NCBI GenBank assembly: GCA_016223105.1
Contig: JACRPR010000017.1
Coordinates: forward strand, 35,510-71,766
Reading direction: 5' to 3'
Length of the DNA: 36,257 bases
DNA from: Chloroflexota bacterium
GTDB taxonomy: Bacteria; Chloroflexota; Anaerolineae; UBA4142
This document shows positions 23,103 through 31,209 of this stretch, piece after piece (positions within the stretch are counted from its first letter, which is position 1; each line of letters opens with the position of its first letter). The translations under genes and the position numbers were made by a program. The notes under the pieces were generated by a model. The model worked only from the letters and a program-made list of their open reading frames with translations, was not told the DNA's origin and ran no database searches.

Positions 23103-23576
23103 TTGGACGAAGAAAAAAACAAAACCCCAGATCAAGCGGTAACGCGTCGTGATTTTCTGGTGAGTGGCGCAATGGCAACTTCGCTCGCCGCCGTCGGGGT
23201 GGTCGCAGGATCGTTTGGCTGGCAATTCGTCTATCCTGCCGCGGCAAAAATTCCGACCGTTCAGGTGTTGGCAACTTCGTTGAGCAAACTTCCGCCGGGC
23301 ACGCGCAAGGTGATGAAACTCGGCGGCAATGAAGTCGTCCTGATGAACACAAATGGCACGGTGCGCGCCATCTCGACGGTCTGCACGCATCTCGGTTGTC
23401 GCGCCGCGTGGGAAGAGGGACGCCAGCAATTCGTCTGCCCGTGTCACACCGGGATTTTCGACGTGAACGGCAAAGTGGTTTCGGGTCCCCAACCGCGCGC
23501 ACTCGATGAGTTCGCGGTGGAGATTAAATCGGGGAATGTGTACGTCGCCGTGCCGCAAAAGGAGGGTGCGGGATGA
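23103..23576 (+). CDS. Rieske [2Fe-2S] protein
   Basis: 157 residues from a TTG codon; GGAGG eight bases upstream decides this start, and the ATG far upstream would run through a hairpin. RRDFLVSG at 15-22 and a hydrophobic stretch to about 46 form a Tat-type signal anchor. The cluster motifs are CTHLGC (C94, H96, C99) and CPCH (C112, C114, H115), giving the two His, two Cys ligands and the disulfide pair. The HTGIFD end differs from the usual HGSxFD. It passes electrons from quinol bound at cytochrome b to an external acceptor. Its stop overlaps the cytochrome b start (ATGA). No cytochrome c1 or f follows. Confidence 0.95.
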   Translation: MDEEKNKTPDQAVTRRDFLVSGAMATSLAAVGVVAGSFGWQFVYPAAAKIPTVQVLATSLSKLPPGTRKVMKLGGNEVVLMNTNGTVRAISTVCTHLGCRAAWEEGRQQFVCPCHTGIFDVNGKVVSGPQPRALDEFAVEIKSGNVYVAVPQKEGAG

Positions 23577-24688
23577 GTATGGAATCTACGCAACAAGTCA
23601 AAGGTTGGCGCGGCTGGCTCGGGCAACGCTTTCCGATTGATGTCAAAGTCTATGAAGAGTTGGCAAAAGAGCCGGTGCCCAAGCACATGGAACGCTGGTG
23701 GTTCGCGCTGGGTGGCACGCCGCTCTTGCTGTTTGTGATCCAGGGCGTCACCGGCATTTTGTTGACCTGGTATTACGTGCCGCGCCCGGAATTCGCGTAC
23801 GAAAGTGTCACGCGGATCAGCAACGAACTGCCGTTCGGTTGGTGGGTGCGCGGCATTCATCAATGGGGTTCGCAGTTGATGATCATCGCGGTCATTTTGC
23901 ATATGCTCCGTACGTTCACGACCGGCGCATATCGCAAACCGCGCGAACTCAACTGGCTGGTCGGCACGGGCTTGCTCGTCGTTACGTTGACGTTCGCGTT
24001 TACCGGCTACGCGCTGGTGAATGATCAACTGTCGTACTGGGCGACGACGGTCGGCACGAACATGTTCGCCGAAATCCCGGTCGTCGGTCCGATCATGCTC
24101 CAGATGATTCGGGGCGGCGTCGCGGTAACAGCGGATACGATGACGCGCTTGTATCCTCTGCACATTGGCGCGTTGCCGACGGCGATTGCCGCGTTGATCG
24201 CGTTGCATGTCGTGCTGATTCGTTTTCTCGGCGTTACCGATTTGGACGCGCGCGAACGTGAACGCCTCGCGCGGCTCGGCAAATCGGCAACGGTTAAGGG
24301 CAATGGCAAAGTCGAATCATCGCACTTTCCGTTTTTCCCGGATCACGTCATGACCGAGTTGGTGATCGGAATGGCAGTGTTGATCATCCTGGTCAACCTC
24401 ACCATTCTCTTTCCGCCGACGCTCGGACCCAAAGCCGATCCGGCAAACACGCCCTTGCATATCAAACCCGAATGGTATTTCTATCCGGTCTTTCGCTGGT
24501 TGAAATTGTTCCCGCTTCAGATCGGTCTCGCGGGTTTGGGCGTCGGCGTGCTCGGGTTCGTGTTTTGGCCCTTTATTGATGCGTTCGTCGAACGCCGCTT
24601 TGGCAATCGCGATATCAACGTGATCCTCGCGTTCATCGTCGCGGTGGGCGCGCTGGCGTTCATCCTGTGGGAACTGTTCTCAGTATAA
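23573..24688 (+). CDS. Cytochrome b of a Rieske/cytochrome b complex
   Basis: 371 residues, N- and C-terminal halves in one chain, about seven or eight membrane helices. Heme b ligands are H96 and H110 (RGIHQWGSQLM to VILHMLR) and H197 and H212 (YPLHIGALP to ALHVVLI). The 15-residue step of the second pair is the b6-type spacing. The quinol-oxidation motif is PEWYFYP at 299-305. So this is a quinol:acceptor oxidoreductase core. The natural acceptor gene slot is taken by an octaheme cytochrome rather than c1. The gap to that gene holds a palindrome. Confidence 0.95.
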   Translation: MSMESTQQVKGWRGWLGQRFPIDVKVYEELAKEPVPKHMERWWFALGGTPLLLFVIQGVTGILLTWYYVPRPEFAYESVTRISNELPFGWWVRGIHQWGSQLMIIAVILHMLRTFTTGAYRKPRELNWLVGTGLLVVTLTFAFTGYALVNDQLSYWATTVGTNMFAEIPVVGPIMLQMIRGGVAVTADTMTRLYPLHIGALPTAIAALIALHVVLIRFLGVTDLDARERERLARLGKSATVKGNGKVESSHFPFFPDHVMTELVIGMAVLIILVNLTILFPPTLGPKADPANTPLHIKPEWYFYPVFRWLKLFPLQIGLAGLGVGVLGFVFWPFIDAFVERRFGNRDINVILAFIVAVGALAFILWELFSV

Positions 24689-24756
24689 ATGACAAATGCA
24701 AAATGACAACTGAACAAATCCAATTTGTCATTTGATAATTTGTCATTAGTCATTTA
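24688..24756. repeat. AATGACAAATTG-type inverted repeat
   Basis: AATGACAAATGCAAAATGAC on the left; AATTTGTCATTTG and TAATTTGTCATT on the right. It starts at the cytochrome b stop and ends just before the ribosome site AAGGAG of the octaheme gene. Confidence 0.65.
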
Positions 24757-24771
24757 CCGAAAGGAGTCAAT

Positions 24772-26353
24772 ATGTCGCTTAACATCAAAGCGCTCGTTGT
24801 GATTGTTCTCGCAATTTTGCTCTTGGCGACGTTCACGGTCGTGGCGTATGTCGAAGGCGCGCAAAAGCGCGTCGGCGCGCCGCCGCCGGCGGTCGCGAGC
24901 GCGGAAGCGCAACAGTGCATCACTTGTCACGAAAACAAAAGCCCGGGTATCGTCGCGCAATGGCGCGATAGCGCGCACGCGGAAAAGGGTGTGGACTGCC
25001 TCGCGTGCCACAAAGTCGCGAAAGATGATTTCGATTACTTTATGTGCCCCGGCGCGTCAATCCCGGTCGCGAGTCATCCGACGCCGAAAGACTGCAAGGA
25101 ATGTCACGAGCAAGCGGTCGTCGAATTCTCGCGCAGTAAACACGCCGCGTTGAACGCGCAAAAGTTTGCGACCTCGCCGGATCGTTTGGTTTTTGAACCG
25201 ACGATCGCAACGCAACACGGTTGCCAACAGTGCCACAACATCGGGCACGTTTGGCCCGATCAAAGCATCGGCGAGTGCGACGCGTGTCACGCCAAGCACA
25301 CCTTCTCGCTCCAGGTCGCGCGCAATCCGCAAACCTGCGGCGAGTGCCACCTCGGTCCCGATCACTCGCACATCGAACAATGGGTCGAGTCCAAGCACGG
25401 CAACATTTTCATGTCCGATCCGGATAATTACAAAAAACTTGGCTACAAGTCGAAAGACTATGTCGGCAAGCCGACGCCGCTCCCGGCACCGACCTGCACG
25501 ACTTGTCACATGGACGCGACCGCGACTCTGCCGGCGACGCACGATGTCGGCGAACGCCTCGCGTGGGAATCGCAATCGCCCTGGTCGACGCGCACGACCG
25601 AAGCGTGGGGCAATGGTTACTCGTGGCAAGAGAAACGCGATCGCATGGAGAATGCATGCTCGCAATGCCACACGCCGAATTTCTATCAACGGTACTTGTT
25701 GTCCGGCGATCTGGCATCGTTGCAGTACAATGAAATTTTCCGCGAAGGTCGGCGCTGGCTGACCGAGATGAACAAAGCCGGTATCTTCAAGACCGCGGGC
25801 GTCAAAGACAATCTCGGCGCGTTCCTCGCGTTCGGTTATGACGAAGCACCGGAAGAACAAATCTATCACGCGTGGCACCACCAGGGGCGGCTCTTCCGCC
25901 AGGGCGCGTTGATGATGGCGGCGGACTATACCCAGTGGCACGGCATCTGGGAAGTTCAGCGCAGTTTGGTCGTATATGCTGTATCCCTTGTACGATTTGC
26001 CGGGCACCGCGTGGGGCATTGACACAATCGCGTTCCGCAAGAGTCCCGAATACACGACGCGCATCCTGATGAATCGCGATGGTTACGGCGATTACTGGGA
26101 CAAAGCCAAAGCGAACACCGAAGCCGCGTACAAAAACAATCTCCTCTCTGCCAAGCAGTGGGAATTGTGGATGAAGATGTACAACAATCGCGACAAGGAA
26201 CTCGGCAACGCGTATCCGCTTTCGCCGGAAATGCAAAAAGCGATTGACGGTGAAAAGAAGGACGGCGCGGCGGCAACGAACCAAGCCATCGAGTTCAAAC
26301 TGCCGATGGGCAGTGTGTGGGCGGCGATCTGGGATACGCTCAAACCCAAGTAG
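24772..26353 (+). CDS. Octaheme cytochrome of the HAO family, frameshifted
   Basis: The first frame (24772-26022) has an N-terminal signal anchor (residues 5-26) and eight CxxCH motifs at residues 49, 76, 108, 151, 169, 189, 242 and 296. No CxxCK is present, which argues against NrfA and octaheme nitrite or tetrathionate reductases. Spacing, THDVGERLAWESQSPWS and MMAADYTQWHGIWE fit the hydroxylamine oxidoreductase family. After HGIWEVQ the frame turns unlike the family and stops; the frame one base over (about 25946-26353) continues with MLYPLYDLPGTAWGIDTIAF to the end. One extra base or two lost bases between about 25945 and 25976 would join them. It may be a sequencing error, a real mutation or recoding. 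Direction of reaction (reductive or oxidative) is open. Confidence 0.85.
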
Positions 26354-26354
26354 G

Positions 26355-26475
26355 ATTGGAAGTTTGAGGTTGGAAGTTGGAAGTTGGAAGTTAGAAGTTG
26401 GACATTGAAGCCGCGTGGGTTTCAACATCTAACGTCTAATGTCCAACCTCCAACCTCCAACATCCAAATTCCAAG
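26355..26475. repeat. GTTGGAAGTTGGA inverted repeat, copy 2
   Basis: Left half ATTGGAAGTTTGAGGTTGGA with further AAGTTGGA units; right half CATCTAACGTCTAATGTCCA with ACCTCCAACCTCCAACATCC. The halves complement each other imperfectly around GCCGCGTGGG. It fills the gap between the octaheme gene and napD. Confidence 0.75.
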
Positions 26476-26488
26476 CAAGGCAATTCCA

Positions 26489-26719
26489 ATGGTCATCATT
26501 GGCGCGATGGTACGCGTAAATGCAGAACAGCACCAAGCCGCGTGGCAAGTCCTTGCCGATTTGCCCGGGGTAACTCCTTTCGCATTGGACGATGCGACCC
26601 GGCTGGGACTGGTGATTGAATCGCCTAGTCTCGACGACGCCTATCGGTTGCTGAATCACGACGTTCACGATGTGCCGGGAGTGTTGAGCGCGTATCCGGC
26701 GTATGCACATTTTGAATGA
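26489..26719 (+). CDS. napD: NapD-like chaperone
   Basis: A 76-residue ferredoxin-fold protein matching NapD: MVIIGAMVRVNAEQHQAAWQ, LADLPGVTPFALDDATRLGL and LNHDVHDVPGVLSAYPAYAH. NapD binds the Tat signal of NapA and holds the apoenzyme in the cytoplasm until the cofactor is inserted. The ATG at 26489 is chosen since the upstream frame runs through a repeat. The next gene indeed encodes a Tat-dependent NapA. Short for the family but complete in its core. It is bracketed by two copies of the same inverted-repeat family. Confidence 0.85.
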   Translation: MVIIGAMVRVNAEQHQAAWQVLADLPGVTPFALDDATRLGLVIESPSLDDAYRLLNHDVHDVPGVLSAYPAYAHFE

Positions 26720-26720
26720 C

Positions 26721-26835
26721 AAATTGGAAGTTGGAAGTTAGATGTTGGAAATTGGAAATTGGAGGTTTGAAGTTGGAAAAACTTTTCCAAGATCTAAATT
26801 TCTAACGTCCAATCTCCAACTTCCAACCTCCAAAA
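26721..26835. repeat. GTTGGAAGTTGGA inverted repeat, copy 3
   Basis: Left half AATTGGAAGTTGGAAGTTAG and GGAAATTGGAAATTGGAGG; right half CTAACGTCCAATCTCCAACT and TCCAACCTCCAAA. AAAACTTTTCC lies at the tip. It starts two bases after the napD stop and ends shortly before the ribosome site AGAGGTG of napA. Confidence 0.75.
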
Positions 26836-26851
26836 TAAGAGGTGATTTTTT

Positions 26852-29203
26852 ATGAACGATATAACCCGACGCGAATTTATAAAGTGGTCGGCGATGGCGG
26901 CGGTCGCCACAATGGCTGGTTGTTCCGCGCCGCAACAAGCCGCGCCCGCACCCCAAGCCACCGCGCGCCCCACCGTTGAAGCCGCGAAAGAATGGCACAA
27001 GTCGGTTTGCCGATTCTGCGGCACCGGGTGCGGCGTACAACTTGGCATCGCGGATGGTAAACTCGTCGCGCTCCGCGGCGATCCCGATCATCCGACGACC
27101 AAAGGTCTCGTGTGCGCGAAAGCATTGTTCTTGCCCAAGATCGTGTACTCGCCCGATCGGTTGACCAAACCGCAGATTCGCAAAGCCGGCAAACTCGTGG
27201 ACGCGACCTGGGACGAGGCGATGAACCTCGTCGCCGACAAATTCGCGGACGCGATCAAAACCGCCGGTCCCGACAGCGTCGCCTACTATGGTTCGGGGCA
27301 AGCGCTCGCGGAAGAATCGTACCTGGCGAATCGTTTGTTCAAGGGCGGCATCGGCACAAACAATCTGGACGGCAATCCGCGCTTGTGTATGGCGAGCGCG
27401 GTCGGCGGTTACACCACGACGTACGGCAAAGACGAACCAATGGGTTCGTACGACGACATTGATCACGCGCGCACGTTCTTTTTGATCGGCTCGAACACCG
27501 CCGAAGCGCACCCGGTTTTGTTCGACCGTATTCTCGACCGCAAATCGAAAAATGCCAACGTGCAGATCATTCTCGTTGATCCGCGCAAAACGCCCGTGCG
27601 CCGCGTCACCGACATCTACCTCGATCCGATCCCAGGATTCGATCTCGACATCTTTCACGCGATGGCGCAGGTCATCATCGCCGAGAAACTCCACGCCCCG
27701 GACTTTATCACCAAACATCTGGTTTTCCGCAAAGTCGTGGACAATCAAAACGTGGATGTAACGTTCGACGAGTACGTGAAATTCCTCGAAGCGTTCACGC
27801 CGGAAAAAGCCGCGGAAAAATGCGGCGTGCCCGCGACGAAAATTCGCCAAGCCGCGCGCATGTTCGCGCAAGGTCCCACAATGTCGCTCTGGTGTATGGG
27901 CTTGAACCAACGCACCGTCGGTGTGTGGGCGAACAATCTGATTCACAACTTGCATCTCATCACCGGGCAATTCGGCAAGCCGGGCGCGACGCCCTTCTCG
28001 CTCACCGGGCAACCGAACGCGTGCGGCGGCGTGCGCGACACCGGCGCGCTCGCGCATCTGCTTCCGTACGGACGCGTGATCGCGAACGCGGATCATCGCG
28101 CGCAAATGGAAAAGTTGTGGGGCGCGCCAGCTGGCAAAATCAAAGCGCAAGACGGCTTGAACACGATTGATATGTTCAAGGCGCTCGGCGAAGACAAGCT
28201 CAAAGCGATGATTATCATCACGACGAACCCAGGACAATCTTTGCCGAACGCGAACAAGTATCGTGACGCGATGGGTAAAGAACGCGCCAACAAACCGTTC
28301 ATCGTTTCGGTGGACGCGTATCCGACGCGCACGACCGAACTCGCGGATGTGGTTCTGCCCGCGGCGATGTGGTCGGAAAAAGAAGGCGTGTTCGGAATGT
28401 CCGAACGCCGGTATCAACTGATGCCCAAACTGATCAGCGCGCCCGGCGAAGCGCGTTCCGATTTCGACATCCTGCTCGATTTCGCGGCGCGGCTCGAAGA
28501 ACGCGGCGTGGTCGCGAAAGGATACATCGCGGGCAAGTTCAAAACGACCGCGGATGTGTGGGAAGAAATGAAAGAAGCATCGCGCAACACCGCGTACGAT
28601 TTTACCGGTATGTCGCGCGAACGAATGAAAAAAGAACGCGGCATTCGCTGGCCCGTCCTCGATGAAACGCATCCCGGCACGAACCGGCGTTTCGTCAAAG
28701 GCGATGATCCACTGCTCGACAAAGGACCGTTCGCGGACGCCAATCTCAAACCCGGCGACATCAAAATTTACACCGGCGCGAACAACAAAGCGATCGTGTG
28801 GTTGCGTCCGTCCAAAGACCCGGCGGAACCGGCGGATAAAGATTTTCCGTTCGTGCTTTCGACCGGGCGCGTGCTCGAACATTGGCACACTGCGACGATG
28901 ACGATGAAGGCGCCCGAACTGCGTCGCGCGCAACCGGAGGCGTACTGCGAAGTGCACCCGCTCGACGCGGAAAAACTTGGCATCAAAACCGGGGATATGG
29001 TCAAACTCACTTCGCGGCGCGGGGATGTTACCGTGCGCGCGCGCGTGGTGGATACGCCGCGACCAGGAATGGTGTTTGTGCCGATGCATTGGTACGAAGA
29101 CAATGCGCTGATCAACAAAGTAACGATTGACGCGTACGACCCAGCATCGCGCCAACCCGAATTCAAGGTGTGCGCGGTCAAAGTCGAAAAAGGCAAGGCG
29201 TAG
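26852..29203 (+). CDS. napA: Periplasmic-type nitrate reductase, catalytic subunit
   Basis: 783 residues of the DMSO reductase superfamily, closest in motifs to NapA. The Tat motif TRREFIKWSA is at 5-14. The [4Fe-4S] cysteines are C53, C56, C60 and C88 (CRFCGTGCGV to GLVCAK). NPRLCMASAV places C179 as the molybdenum ligand, the Cys seen in nitrate reductases of the Nap type. MGLNQRTVGVWANNLIHNLH and SLTGQPNACGGVRDTG are further NapA blocks. It reduces nitrate to nitrite outside the cytoplasmic membrane. MAGC at 21-24 reads as a lipobox, so the mature enzyme may be lipid-anchored at C24. Slightly shorter than proteobacterial NapA. Substrate is inferred from motifs; other oxyanions cannot be excluded. 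Confidence 0.9.
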   Translation: MNDITRREFIKWSAMAAVATMAGCSAPQQAAPAPQATARPTVEAAKEWHKSVCRFCGTGCGVQLGIADGKLVALRGDPDHPTTKGLVCAKALFLPKIVYSPDRLTKPQIRKAGKLVDATWDEAMNLVADKFADAIKTAGPDSVAYYGSGQALAEESYLANRLFKGGIGTNNLDGNPRLCMASAVGGYTTTYGKDEPMGSYDDIDHARTFFLIGSNTAEAHPVLFDRILDRKSKNANVQIILVDPRKTPVRRVTDIYLDPIPGFDLDIFHAMAQVIIAEKLHAPDFITKHLVFRKVVDNQNVDVTFDEYVKFLEAFTPEKAAEKCGVPATKIRQAARMFAQGPTMSLWCMGLNQRTVGVWANNLIHNLHLITGQFGKPGATPFSLTGQPNACGGVRDTGALAHLLPYGRVIANADHRAQMEKLWGAPAGKIKAQDGLNTIDMFKALGEDKLKAMIIITTNPGQSLPNANKYRDAMGKERANKPFIVSVDAYPTRTTELADVVLPAAMWSEKEGVFGMSERRYQLMPKLISAPGEARSDFDILLDFAARLEERGVVAKGYIAGKFKTTADVWEEMKEASRNTAYDFTGMSRERMKKERGIRWPVLDETHPGTNRRFVKGDDPLLDKGPFADANLKPGDIKIYTGANNKAIVWLRPSKDPAEPADKDFPFVLSTGRVLEHWHTATMTMKAPELRRAQPEAYCEVHPLDAEKLGIKTGDMVKLTSRRGDVTVRARVVDTPRPGMVFVPMHWYEDNALINKVTIDAYDPASRQPEFKVCAVKVEKGKA

Positions 29204-29210
29204 GAGGTGG

Positions 29211-29540
29211 ATGATGAAACGAATCGTAATTCTCTCAATCGTCTTGCTTGCGGTGCTCGCGCTGACGCTCGCGTGTCAACCAACCAAAGTGCCAACGCAA
29301 CCGACGCCGGTGCCAACCGCGATCGCGGTCTTTGAACCCACATCGTCGTTCGCGGCTGGCGCGTTCCCGCCGCCAATGCCGCCCATCGAACAACACAATA
29401 ACGCGTGGCTCATCACCGATTGTCTCGGTTGTCACGACAAGGACGCCGGCGAAGCGCCGACGATCAAACACAAGGACTTGCCGGAAATTTACCTCAACGT
29501 GAATTGCCGAACGTGCCATGTGCCGAAGCCAGCAGAATAG
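29211..29540 (+). CDS. napB: Minimal diheme NapB-like lipoprotein
   Basis: About 109 residues, shorter than standard NapB. The signal ends LTLAC (C22), a lipobox, followed by a Pro/Thr spacer. Two heme sites CLGCH (71-75) and CRTCHVP (99-105) with EAPTIKH between them follow the NapB plan; H62 and H87 are candidate distal ligands. It should accept electrons and hand them to NapA at the outer membrane face. AGGAGG precedes two consecutive ATG codons (29211 and 29214); the second has the better spacing. It follows napA by eight bases. Sequence identity to NapB is low, so the name rests on context plus heme layout. Confidence 0.8.
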   Translation: MMKRIVILSIVLLAVLALTLACQPTKVPTQPTPVPTAIAVFEPTSSFAAGAFPPPMPPIEQHNNAWLITDCLGCHDKDAGEAPTIKHKDLPEIYLNVNCRTCHVPKPAE

Positions 29541-29562
29541 TTGAATCAATGCCAGAAGCGCA

Positions 29563-29593
29563 GAGAGCCGGGAGGAATTTTCTCCCGGCTCTC
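29563..29593. terminator. Hairpin after napB
   Basis: GAGAGCCGGGAG and CTCCCGGCTCTC, perfect 12-bp stem, 7-base loop. There is no T run after it, so it may only partly stop transcription or protect the 3' end. A new promoter follows. Confidence 0.55.
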
Positions 29594-29640
29594 ACGCGGA
29601 TGGCGCGCTGATAAGTAAATGCGCGCGACGCAATAGATTT

Positions 29641-29667
29641 TTGTTATAGTGTAATTTGTTTTATAAT
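29641..29667 (+). promoter_or_regulatory. Candidate promoter before napG
   Basis: TATAAT at 29662-29667 with TTGTTA at 29641-29646 (15-base spacing, short). AT-rich context. Suggests that napGH can be transcribed on their own. Confidence 0.55.
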
Positions 29668-29678
29668 CGCTAACGCGT

Positions 29679-29703
29679 ACGGCAAATTTATAAATTTGCC
29701 CTA
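29679..29703. repeat. Palindrome GGCAAATTTATAAATTTGCC before napG
   Basis: Exact 20-base palindrome flanked by TAC and CTA. Member of the AATTGCC family. It lies between the promoter and napG and could also be an operator. Confidence 0.65.
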
Positions 29704-29715
29704 CACTTTCCATTT

Positions 29716-30291
29716 ATGCTCACTCGCAGACAATTTCTCACCGGCATCGCGGTCGCATTGACCGGCGGACTCGGCGGCATCTGGCTCGCGCGCGACAAGG
29801 CGCGCGCGCCGCGTTATTTGCGTCCGCCCGGCGCACTGCCGGAAAATGATTTTTTAGCGGCGTGCATTCGATGCGGCTTGTGCGTGCAATCCTGGCCATT
29901 CGACACGCTCAAGCTCACGGATGCGCGATCCGTCGCCGCGCTCGGCACGCCGTACTTGATCGCGCGCGATGTGCCGTGCTATTTATGCAAGGGCTACCCC
30001 GAATTGAAATGTATCGTCTCCTGCCCGACGCCCGCGCTTCAACCGGTCGCGTCTCTGCGCGAGATTCGAATGGGCGTCGCGGCGATCAATCGCGACACCT
30101 GCCTCGCGTGGCTCGGCACAAGTTGCCGCGCGTGCTGGCACGCATGTCCGCTTCCGAACGAAGCGATTGTGCTGGATGAACTCGGGCGCGCGCTCGTGGA
30201 CGAAAAAATTTGCATCGGCTGTGGCTTGTGCGATTACGCGTGCGTGACCGATCCGAGTTCGATTGTCATTACGCCGCGAGGAAACGGGTGA
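29716..30291 (+). CDS. napG: NapG-like ferredoxin (four cluster sites, one degenerate)
   Basis: 191 residues with a Tat signal TRRQFLTG at 3-10, so it is exported folded. Cluster sites: I C50, C53, C56 then W60 instead of Cys (CIRCGLCVQSWP); II C88, C91, C99, C103; III C129, C137, C140, C144; IV C166, C169, C172, C176. NapG works with the membrane protein NapH as a quinol dehydrogenase feeding Nap. The loss of the fourth ligand of cluster I is unusual, since this block is otherwise almost identical to the family. It could leave a three-iron cluster or none. The stop TGA overlaps the first bases of a palindrome. Confidence 0.88.
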   Translation: MLTRRQFLTGIAVALTGGLGGIWLARDKARAPRYLRPPGALPENDFLAACIRCGLCVQSWPFDTLKLTDARSVAALGTPYLIARDVPCYLCKGYPELKCIVSCPTPALQPVASLREIRMGVAAINRDTCLAWLGTSCRACWHACPLPNEAIVLDELGRALVDEKICIGCGLCDYACVTDPSSIVITPRGNG

Positions 30292-30355
30292 TCCGCGAAT
30301 TACGCGCATCTGCGCGAATCTTTTTATTCGCGTAGATGCGCGTAATTCGCGGATC
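30290..30355. repeat. GATCCGCGAATTACGCG palindrome between napG and napH
   Basis: Two 30-base arms (30290-30319 and 30326-30355) differing at one position, with a CTTTTT loop. The core GATCCGCGAATTACGCG is also found inside element B near 20618. The palindrome fills almost the whole gap between two genes of one functional pair. Confidence 0.82.
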
Positions 30356-30366
30356 AAAAATGATCT

Positions 30367-31209
30367 ATGAAAATTCCAAAACCACGCCGCATTGATAAAT
30401 GGACGTTCGCGCATCGCGTGACTGCGCTTGCCTTTCTCGCGCTCTTGATCCTGGGACGCTTTGATGCGTTTCCCTGGTTCAAAGGTTCCGCCGCCGCGAC
30501 ACGTTTGTTCGAAGTGATTCGCTTCGCCGATCCACTCGGCGCGCTCGAAGCGATTCTCGCGAGCCGGCAATTTACGCTCACGCTGTTGATCGCCGCCGGG
30601 TTGTTGATTGTGCTGTACGCGATTGTTGGTCGCGCGTTTTGTGGCTGGGTCTGTCCGCTCGGTCTCGTCCTCGAATTGAACGACGATCTGCGAACGCGCG
30701 TCAATCGTTTTTTACGGCGTCGCAAACTCGCGTTGCCGGATATTCAATTGCCACGTAATACGAAATACGCAATACTCATCACGTTTTTGATTCTCTCTTT
30801 TGTAATCCAACTCCCGGTCTTTCAAATCATTTCGCCGATCAATCTGCTCGCGCGCAGTTTTATTTTCGGTCCCGAAGCTGGGTTGATCCTGGTCGGCACG
30901 ATCCTCATATTCGAGTACGCGTCGCGGCGCGCGTGGTGCATCGCGCTGTGTCCGCTCGGTGCGTTCTACAGTTTGCTCGGACGCTTTGCGCCCTTGAGAA
31001 TAAAAATTGATCAGGAAAAAGAAAAAGCCGGGAAGATGTGCGGCTTGTGCGCGTACCATTGCCCGATGCAGATCGAGGTGTTGGACGATCACATCCGGCG
31101 CGGCAAAGCGGCGGTGGACGATCCCGATTGCACGCGTTGCGGCGCGTGTATGGACGGTTGCCCGCGCGATAGTTTGCGGATGGGCATGACCAACCCGAAG
31201 GGTCGCTAA
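30367..31209 (+). CDS. napH: NapH-like membrane quinol dehydrogenase
   Basis: 280 residues with about four membrane helices. Typical NapH features: two cytoplasm-facing CxxxCP motifs, GRAFCGWVCPLG near 97 and RAWCIALCPLGAFY near 194, and a C-terminal ferredoxin part with CGLCAYHCPMQIEV and CTRCGACMDGCP. It oxidises menaquinol and passes electrons to NapG on the outer side. No NapC-type tetraheme cytochrome is present, so NapGH is the likely quinol link to NapBA. Its last codons (NPKGR) are encoded by the left arm of the terminator. No ribosome site of standard form is seen because the palindrome lies directly upstream. Confidence 0.9.
   Translation: MKIPKPRRIDKWTFAHRVTALAFLALLILGRFDAFPWFKGSAAATRLFEVIRFADPLGALEAILASRQFTLTLLIAAGLLIVLYAIVGRAFCGWVCPLGLVLELNDDLRTRVNRFLRRRKLALPDIQLPRNTKYAILITFLILSFVIQLPVFQIISPINLLARSFIFGPEAGLILVGTILIFEYASRRAWCIALCPLGAFYSLLGRFAPLRIKIDQEKEKAGKMCGLCAYHCPMQIEVLDDHIRRGKAAVDDPDCTRCGACMDGCPRDSLRMGMTNPKGR

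Follow-up and report, generated by a model that had tools for sequence, protein, structure and literature searches.

The window analysed here, a 36,257-nucleotide stretch on contig 92 of a draft genome of a Chloroflexota bacterium (GCA_016223105.1; 5.5 Mb, ~93% complete, hereafter G000), contains an island at positions 23103-31209 in which genes for a Rieske protein, a cytochrome b, an octaheme cytochrome c (OCC), NapD, NapA, a small diheme lipoprotein, NapG and NapH follow one another on the + strand. We consider it rather probable that the island encodes a two-branch, menaquinol-driven periplasmic nitrate route, in which the Rieske/cytochrome b pair would serve the octaheme for nitrite, and NapGH and the diheme lipoprotein would serve NapA. 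In the first branch, a Rieske/cytochrome b complex of low potential that lacks cytochrome c1 would oxidize menaquinol and pass the electrons to a reductive octaheme, devoid of the cross-link tyrosine of oxidative HAO, which would reduce nitrite. In the second, NapGH and the diheme lipoprotein would feed NapA, the source of that nitrite. Family matches are far above chance for every gene of the island except that of the diheme protein. Comparison with G001, a relative of a different genus in the same family that was used as reference, indicates purifying selection (ratio of nonsynonymous to synonymous substitution rates, dN/dS, 0.08-0.27). The gene order in G001 is the same, and its octaheme gene, napG and the other genes are intact.

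The Rieske/cytochrome b pair and its octaheme

The CPCHTGIFD motif of the Rieske protein has lost both the Ser and the Tyr residues that raise the potential, and Gly and Phe occupy their positions in all readable Rieske motifs of the surveyed Rieske-cytochrome b-OCC clusters. In other Rieske proteins, the potential drops by roughly 130 mV when the Ser is lost and by roughly 65 mV when the Tyr is lost (PMC12954380); the sequence therefore suggests a low-potential complex adapted to menaquinol. The cytochrome b combines the b6 and subunit IV parts in a single 371-aa chain with a conserved PEWY motif, and its WWFALGG segment has Ala at the position of the Cys in heme c_n-binding b6 proteins. The initial annotation reported that NapC, NrfA/NrfH and cytochrome c1 are absent, and this holds within the island. 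Since there is no cytochrome c1 and the octaheme gene starts 83 bases downstream of that for cytochrome b, the octaheme is likely the electron acceptor of the complex.

The octaheme belongs to the HAO/OCC family (PF13447, 77.5 bits against a cut-off of 21.9; eight CxxCH motifs in a 416-aa open reading frame), and its core is 90% identical to the intact G001 ortholog. In the alignment, for which the C-terminus of the Nitrosomonas HAO was verified against the 1fgj chain sequence, the Tyr467 column is occupied by 42 Q, 25 W and 16 H residues, and by Y only in NeHAO and the Kuenenia HAO; the G001 ortholog and its clade have Gln. The window carries the ADYTQWHG motif of this clade upstream of a break in the octaheme gene (see below). 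Placement of the Tyr of this motif on Tyr467 was rejected, as a gap-free alignment (with G470, R476 and V479-I481 matched) puts Gln there, in agreement with MAFFT. The Asp267/His268 pair of the substrate heme is kept in 85 of the 87 sequences that cover the site. With Tyr467 absent and Asp267/His268 kept, the protein is, as judged from its residues, an OCC of the reductive (Tyr-less) type, and an oxidative HAO of the Nitrosomonas type is ruled out. All eight motifs are CxxCH, with no lysine-ligated heme (CxxCK) of the NrfA/ONR type. By profile and by predicted fold (a model of moderate confidence, with a predicted local distance difference test score of 71), the nearest structure is IhOCC (4qo5), the Ignicoccus octaheme, followed by HAO and HDH. 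The initial annotation's reading of the octaheme as a relative of reductive HAO is thus supported.

In a quick OCC tree, built with few reference sequences on long branches and supported by the Shimodaira-Hasegawa-like approximate likelihood ratio test (SH-aLRT) only, the octaheme falls into a nine-member clade with a C-terminal extension (SH-aLRT 100). The other members are G001, L035 (a Chloroflexi metagenome-assembled genome and the nearest named relative), L036, L037 (Candidatus Chrysopegis), L038, L039 (Desulfuromonas), L040 and L041 (Denitrovibrio). The extension in the window has no match among the Pfam or NCBIfam models. Three matches to HAO relatives on plasmids (53-70% query cover, 22-33% identity) were of no help.

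Few members of the phylum carry an OCC relative (6 of the 400 genomes sampled), and at the order level a close NapA and a close OCC were found only in G000 and G001 among 20 genomes, together in both. The pairing of the octaheme with Rieske/cytochrome b nevertheless recurs in other bacteria. A cytochrome b gene lies near the OCC gene in 25 of 86 loci (including L071, where it is almost 5 kb away), nearly always as Rieske-cytochrome b-OCC, and nine of these loci also have NapA; the count is a lower bound because some contigs are short. Within the Rieske-cytochrome b-OCC loci, the gaps between cytochrome b and OCC are mostly 7-120 bp. The carriers represent about a dozen phyla (Planctomycetota, Acidobacteriota, Myxococcota, Nitrospirota, Nitrospinota, Bacteroidota, Gemmatimonadota, Omnitrophota and others), and the label for this arrangement changes at least 12 times on the OCC tree. 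Such repeated, tightly spaced co-location in many phyla backs the earlier suggestion that quinol electrons reach the octaheme through Rieske/cytochrome b.

Some variants of the arrangement were also observed. Cytochrome b, OCC and NapA genes are directly consecutive in L042-L045, L047 and L050 (Planctomycetota, Acidobacteriota, Myxococcota), preceded by a Rieske gene where the contig reaches, and napGH was not detected nearby. Another relative from the same class, G052, encodes a 706-aa cytochrome b protein and, after it, an octaheme (L018 6184-9833), with no Rieske or nap gene detected in the vicinity.

The octaheme could, in principle, act as a substitute for cytochrome c1 that relays electrons via the diheme protein to NapA, such that the whole island would form one electrogenic nitrate reductase. 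Consistent with such a relay, the island lacks both cytochrome c1 and NapC, Rieske, cytochrome b, OCC and NapA genes occur in immediate succession in L042-L045 and L047, and Nap of Campylobacter jejuni depends on the bc complex (QcrABC) and cannot rely on NapGH alone (PMC6195509). We regard it as unlikely, since the catalytic Asp/His pair of the substrate heme is almost universally kept, NapGH is available as another donor, and Rieske-cytochrome b-OCC occurs without NapA nearby in 16 loci, including those of Nitrospira, whose octaheme is regarded as a nitrite reductase (PMC12342949).

We tentatively raise the possibility that Rieske/cytochrome b, with a low-potential Rieske protein and no cytochrome c1, has repeatedly been coupled to reductive octahemes across bacteria and forms a widespread proton-translocating quinol:nitrite oxidoreductase, here combined with Nap and being lost in one lineage. 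If so, nitrite reduction by OCC would proceed via a complex of the Q-cycle type and could conserve energy where NrfHA does not, unlike systems fed by NapC or NrfH. As the pairing recurs across phyla, often with NapA, the idea is testable in cultivated hosts.

The Nap genes and the product of nitrite reduction

NapA combines a twin-arginine translocation (Tat) signal with Fe4S4 and molybdopterin domains and is accompanied by NapD, as befits a Nap system. Its best NCBIfam model is NapA, at 685 bits where the equivalog cut-off is 904; the NapA of L038 likewise remains under it (657 bits). From Planctomycetota, Acidobacteriota and Myxococcota, four NapA proteins were tested, and each of them passes the cut-off. 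The closest solved structure is the periplasmic nitrate reductase 2jio (E 4e-244), and 2jio/2nap, the Desulfovibrio enzyme, is nearest in sequence. NapG and NapH match best the NCBIfam models of those names, under the curated cut-offs (Table 1). The first cluster motif of NapG reads CxxCxxCxxxW (CIRCGLCVQSWPF, positions 29863-29901), with Trp in place of the fourth ligand Cys, which is kept in G001 and L038. The diheme protein has an LxxC lipobox and does not qualify as NapB, its comparison with the Pfam NapB model giving no match for the window and an E value of 0.4 for G001. NapGH and this lipoprotein are likely the electron donors to NapA. The unidirectional gene set described by the initial annotation thus stands as far as orientation is concerned, but its octaheme frame is broken, its "NapB" fails the NapB model and its NapG is one Cys short.

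No match above the cut-off was found in G000 for NrfA (PF02335, Cytochrom_C552) or NirK; NirS was not searched for. A single match to PF03264 lies within a 670-aa frame on another contig, outside the island. Hcp was not found in G000, where the only prismane-family gene is a CO dehydrogenase. A candidate Hcp that would finish a hydroxylamine route was dismissed, as the PF03063 match in G001 is CooS (607 bits against a cut-off of 478), of which the one in G000 is the broken ortholog. Given that G000 has no Hcp, NirK or NrfA above the cut-off, ammonium would be the most likely product of the octaheme, with release of hydroxylamine or NO as further possibilities.

A role of the octaheme in releasing hydroxylamine or NO, or in NO detoxification, instead of making ammonium appears improbable to us. 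Such a function would be in line with the Kuenenia HAOr, held to be a plausible NO-forming nitrite reductase (PMC12485887), with hydroxylamine as the proposed product in Nautilia (PMC3701875), and with the NrfHA pair that already equips G001 for ammonium. It is less easily reconciled with the failure to find an Hcp to finish the hydroxylamine route, with the lack of a NirK above the cut-off that would point to a denitrification context, and with the expression of the Nitrospira octahemes under ammonium lack (PMC12342949). The NrfA (five CxxCH motifs) and NrfH genes of G001 (L117 1516-3498) are located next to a moaA-like gene, and were not found in G000 at the same threshold.

Several observations weigh against the two-branch route. 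Since G001 has the NrfHA pair, its OCC is not needed for ammonium, and the concept of the octaheme as a general replacement for Nrf is weakened. The requirement for the bc complex in C. jejuni makes a crossing of the Rieske/cytochrome b and NapGH branches possible, and the assumed division between two quinol outlets may be wrong. In five of the nine extended-clade loci (L035, L036, L039, L040 and L041), neither Rieske/cytochrome b nor nap was detected alongside the OCC gene in the DNA covered, whereas G001, L037 and L038 have nap and Rieske/cytochrome b/OCC together; the conservation that the initial annotation asked of relatives is thus partly borne out. A literature search yielded no biochemical data on the extended OCC clade. 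Finally, the octaheme gene is broken in the very genome of the window.

Relation to known systems

The set of nap, Rieske/cytochrome b and octaheme genes is not new, as it was published for Caldithrix abyssi in 2017 (Cabys_2564-2556, with the octaheme termed epsilonHao and the same electron path proposed; PMC5317091), and the Rieske/cytochrome b-octaheme pair was published for Nitrospirales in 2025 (PMC12342949). According to the published description, the C. abyssi cluster resembles the present one in having nap genes without napC, NapG and NapH, a Rieske protein and cytochrome b without cytochrome c1, and an adjoining Tyr-less octaheme. Adjacent nap, Rieske/cytochrome b and OCC genes in one direction are likewise found in the window, G001, L037 and L038. 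In the window the Rieske-cytochrome b-octaheme module comes first, whereas L037 and L038 keep the published Caldithrix order, in which Rieske, cytochrome b and OCC come after the nap genes. C. abyssi has a tetraheme NapM, for which L038 contains a four-CxxCH candidate, whereas the island has the small diheme lipoprotein, which does not qualify as NapM. C. abyssi also belongs to a different phylum, and in G000 the octaheme frame is broken.

The Nitrospirales octaheme "ONR" is encoded with petBC and, as here, adjoins Rieske/cytochrome b as its supposed acceptor for nitrite reduction; in contrast, it is assigned to nitrogen assimilation and belongs to another OCC clade without the C-terminal extension (PMC12342949). 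From their gene context, we infer that the Nitrospira loci L055, L059 and L063 in our OCC tree represent this published ONR; no nap genes were seen in these three loci.

In Kuenenia (Kuste4569-4574), a Rieske protein, a cytochrome b and an HAO-like octaheme are also encoded together (PMC12954380, PMC12485887), and the anammox complexes had supplied one half of the initial interpretation. In the Kuste4569-type complex, one subunit is an NAD(P) oxidoreductase, and the Rieske protein, which has the Ser/Tyr pair, lies at about +300 mV (PMC12954380); b6 and subunit IV are separate proteins, and an extra multiheme c is present. None of these features occurs here. As both high-potential Rieske residues are lost, unlike in Kuste4569, and the island has no NAD(P) oxidoreductase subunit, this half fails, and anammox-type electron bifurcation to NAD(P)H was discarded. 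The other half invoked the Nautilia route. Nautilia profundicola, with its reverse hydroxylamine:ubiquinone reductase module (PMC3701875), and Deferribacter autotrophicus, with napMADGH-hao (PMC6896113), share with the island the combination of Nap and an HAO relative that replaces NrfA. They employ cytochromes of the NapC/CycB or NapM type together with Hcp, whereas the island has Rieske/cytochrome b; the CycB/NapC donor and the Hcp that the Nautilia route needs were not found in the island and in G000, respectively, and this parallel is not supported either.

The new elements are the lineage, the order of the modules, the replacement of NapM by the diheme protein, the extended OCC clade, the breadth of recurrence and the apparent decay in G000. 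The chief contribution of G000 itself is a further example, from a new lineage, together with a warning, as its key gene is broken.

The frame break and the layout of the island

The octaheme open reading frame of the window starts at 24772 and, past the break, reads on in the wrong frame until it terminates at 26022; the C-terminal part continues in another frame (~25970-26353), whereas the G001 octaheme is a single 551-aa frame. Near 25970 the window lacks 74 bp that G001 has, a stretch present in all other clade members. The break lies downstream of all eight heme motifs and of the conserved WHHxGR...DYTQWHG region. As the dN/dS of the displaced tail against G001 is still 0.16 (core, 0.09), the break is a recent event or an assembly fault. 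Nitrite reduction in G000 is probably compromised, or else depends on a truncated protein with all eight heme motifs preserved; with the gene broken, the route from nitrate through nitrite reduction may no longer work in this genome.

Two other genes are broken by frame shifts in G000 and intact in G001, namely the ortholog of the NarX/NarQ-like heme-domain kinase encoded next to the cluster in G001 (split by a deletion; L145 6718-8485, contig 48) and the anaerobic CO dehydrogenase (broken twice; L149 2173-4114, contig 132). In a two-way control (~0.95 Mb from G000, 0.42 Mb from G001), 3 of 26 orthologs were broken in G000, compared to 0 of 24 in G001. With 23 of the 26 intact, general frameshift noise in the assembly was rejected, an assembly fault at the octaheme site itself being still possible.

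Decay of the route in G000, to the point of non-function and with nitrate reduction or nothing remaining, is a serious possibility, if somewhat short of probable, and would be compatible with the two-branch route for the lineage. The three broken genes, the Cys-to-Trp change in NapG and the imbalance of the two-way control point in this direction; the dN/dS of the octaheme tail, indicative of a recent break or an assembly fault, and the survival of a 400-aa core with all heme motifs argue for restraint. Because all three broken genes had been chosen for inspection on account of their function, the evidence for decay is suggestive and does not amount to proof.

Table 1. Positions and supporting matches of the features in the island
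Feature	Position	Strand	Matches and remarks
Rieske [2Fe-2S] protein, Tat-like signal (TRRDF)	23103..23576	+	PF00355 E 4.3e-16; motif CTHLGC...CPCHTGIFD
One-piece cytochrome b, 371 aa	23573..24688	+	PF00033 4.1e-49, PF00032 1.3e-9; PEWY
Octaheme core, eight CxxCH, reductive HAO/OCC type by sequence	24772..25971	+	PF13447 1.3e-21
Breakpoint, 74 bp of G001 missing, frame shifted	25970..25972	+	DNA alignment, G001 translation
Octaheme C-terminal extension, now out of frame	25973..26353	+	Extension common to its clade
NapD chaperone	26489..26719	+	PF03927 4e-9; ATG at 26489 likely, open reading frame from 26384
NapA catalytic subunit, 783 aa, Tat signal, Fe4S4 and molybdopterin domains	26852..29203	+	
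Small diheme c-type lipoprotein in NapB position, 109 aa, two CxxCH	29211..29540	+	
NapG-type ferredoxin, Tat-like signal	29716..30291	+	NCBIfam NapG 170 bits, cut-off 269
NapH-type membrane ferredoxin	30367..31209	+	NCBIfam NapH/MauN 203 bits, cut-off 213

Results of promoter and terminator scans hardly differed from those expected after shuffling, and no use was made of them. In G001, a NarL-type regulator and a heme-domain sensor kinase are encoded immediately upstream of the Rieske gene (L016 11410-14054), and related sensor domains occur near the OCC genes of L038, L041, L082 and L106. Short arrays of the heptamer TTGGAAG, with a facing complement, flank napD on both sides (26356-26474 and 26724-26833), and this repeat also occurs at the corresponding location in G001, as well as in several further contigs of G000.

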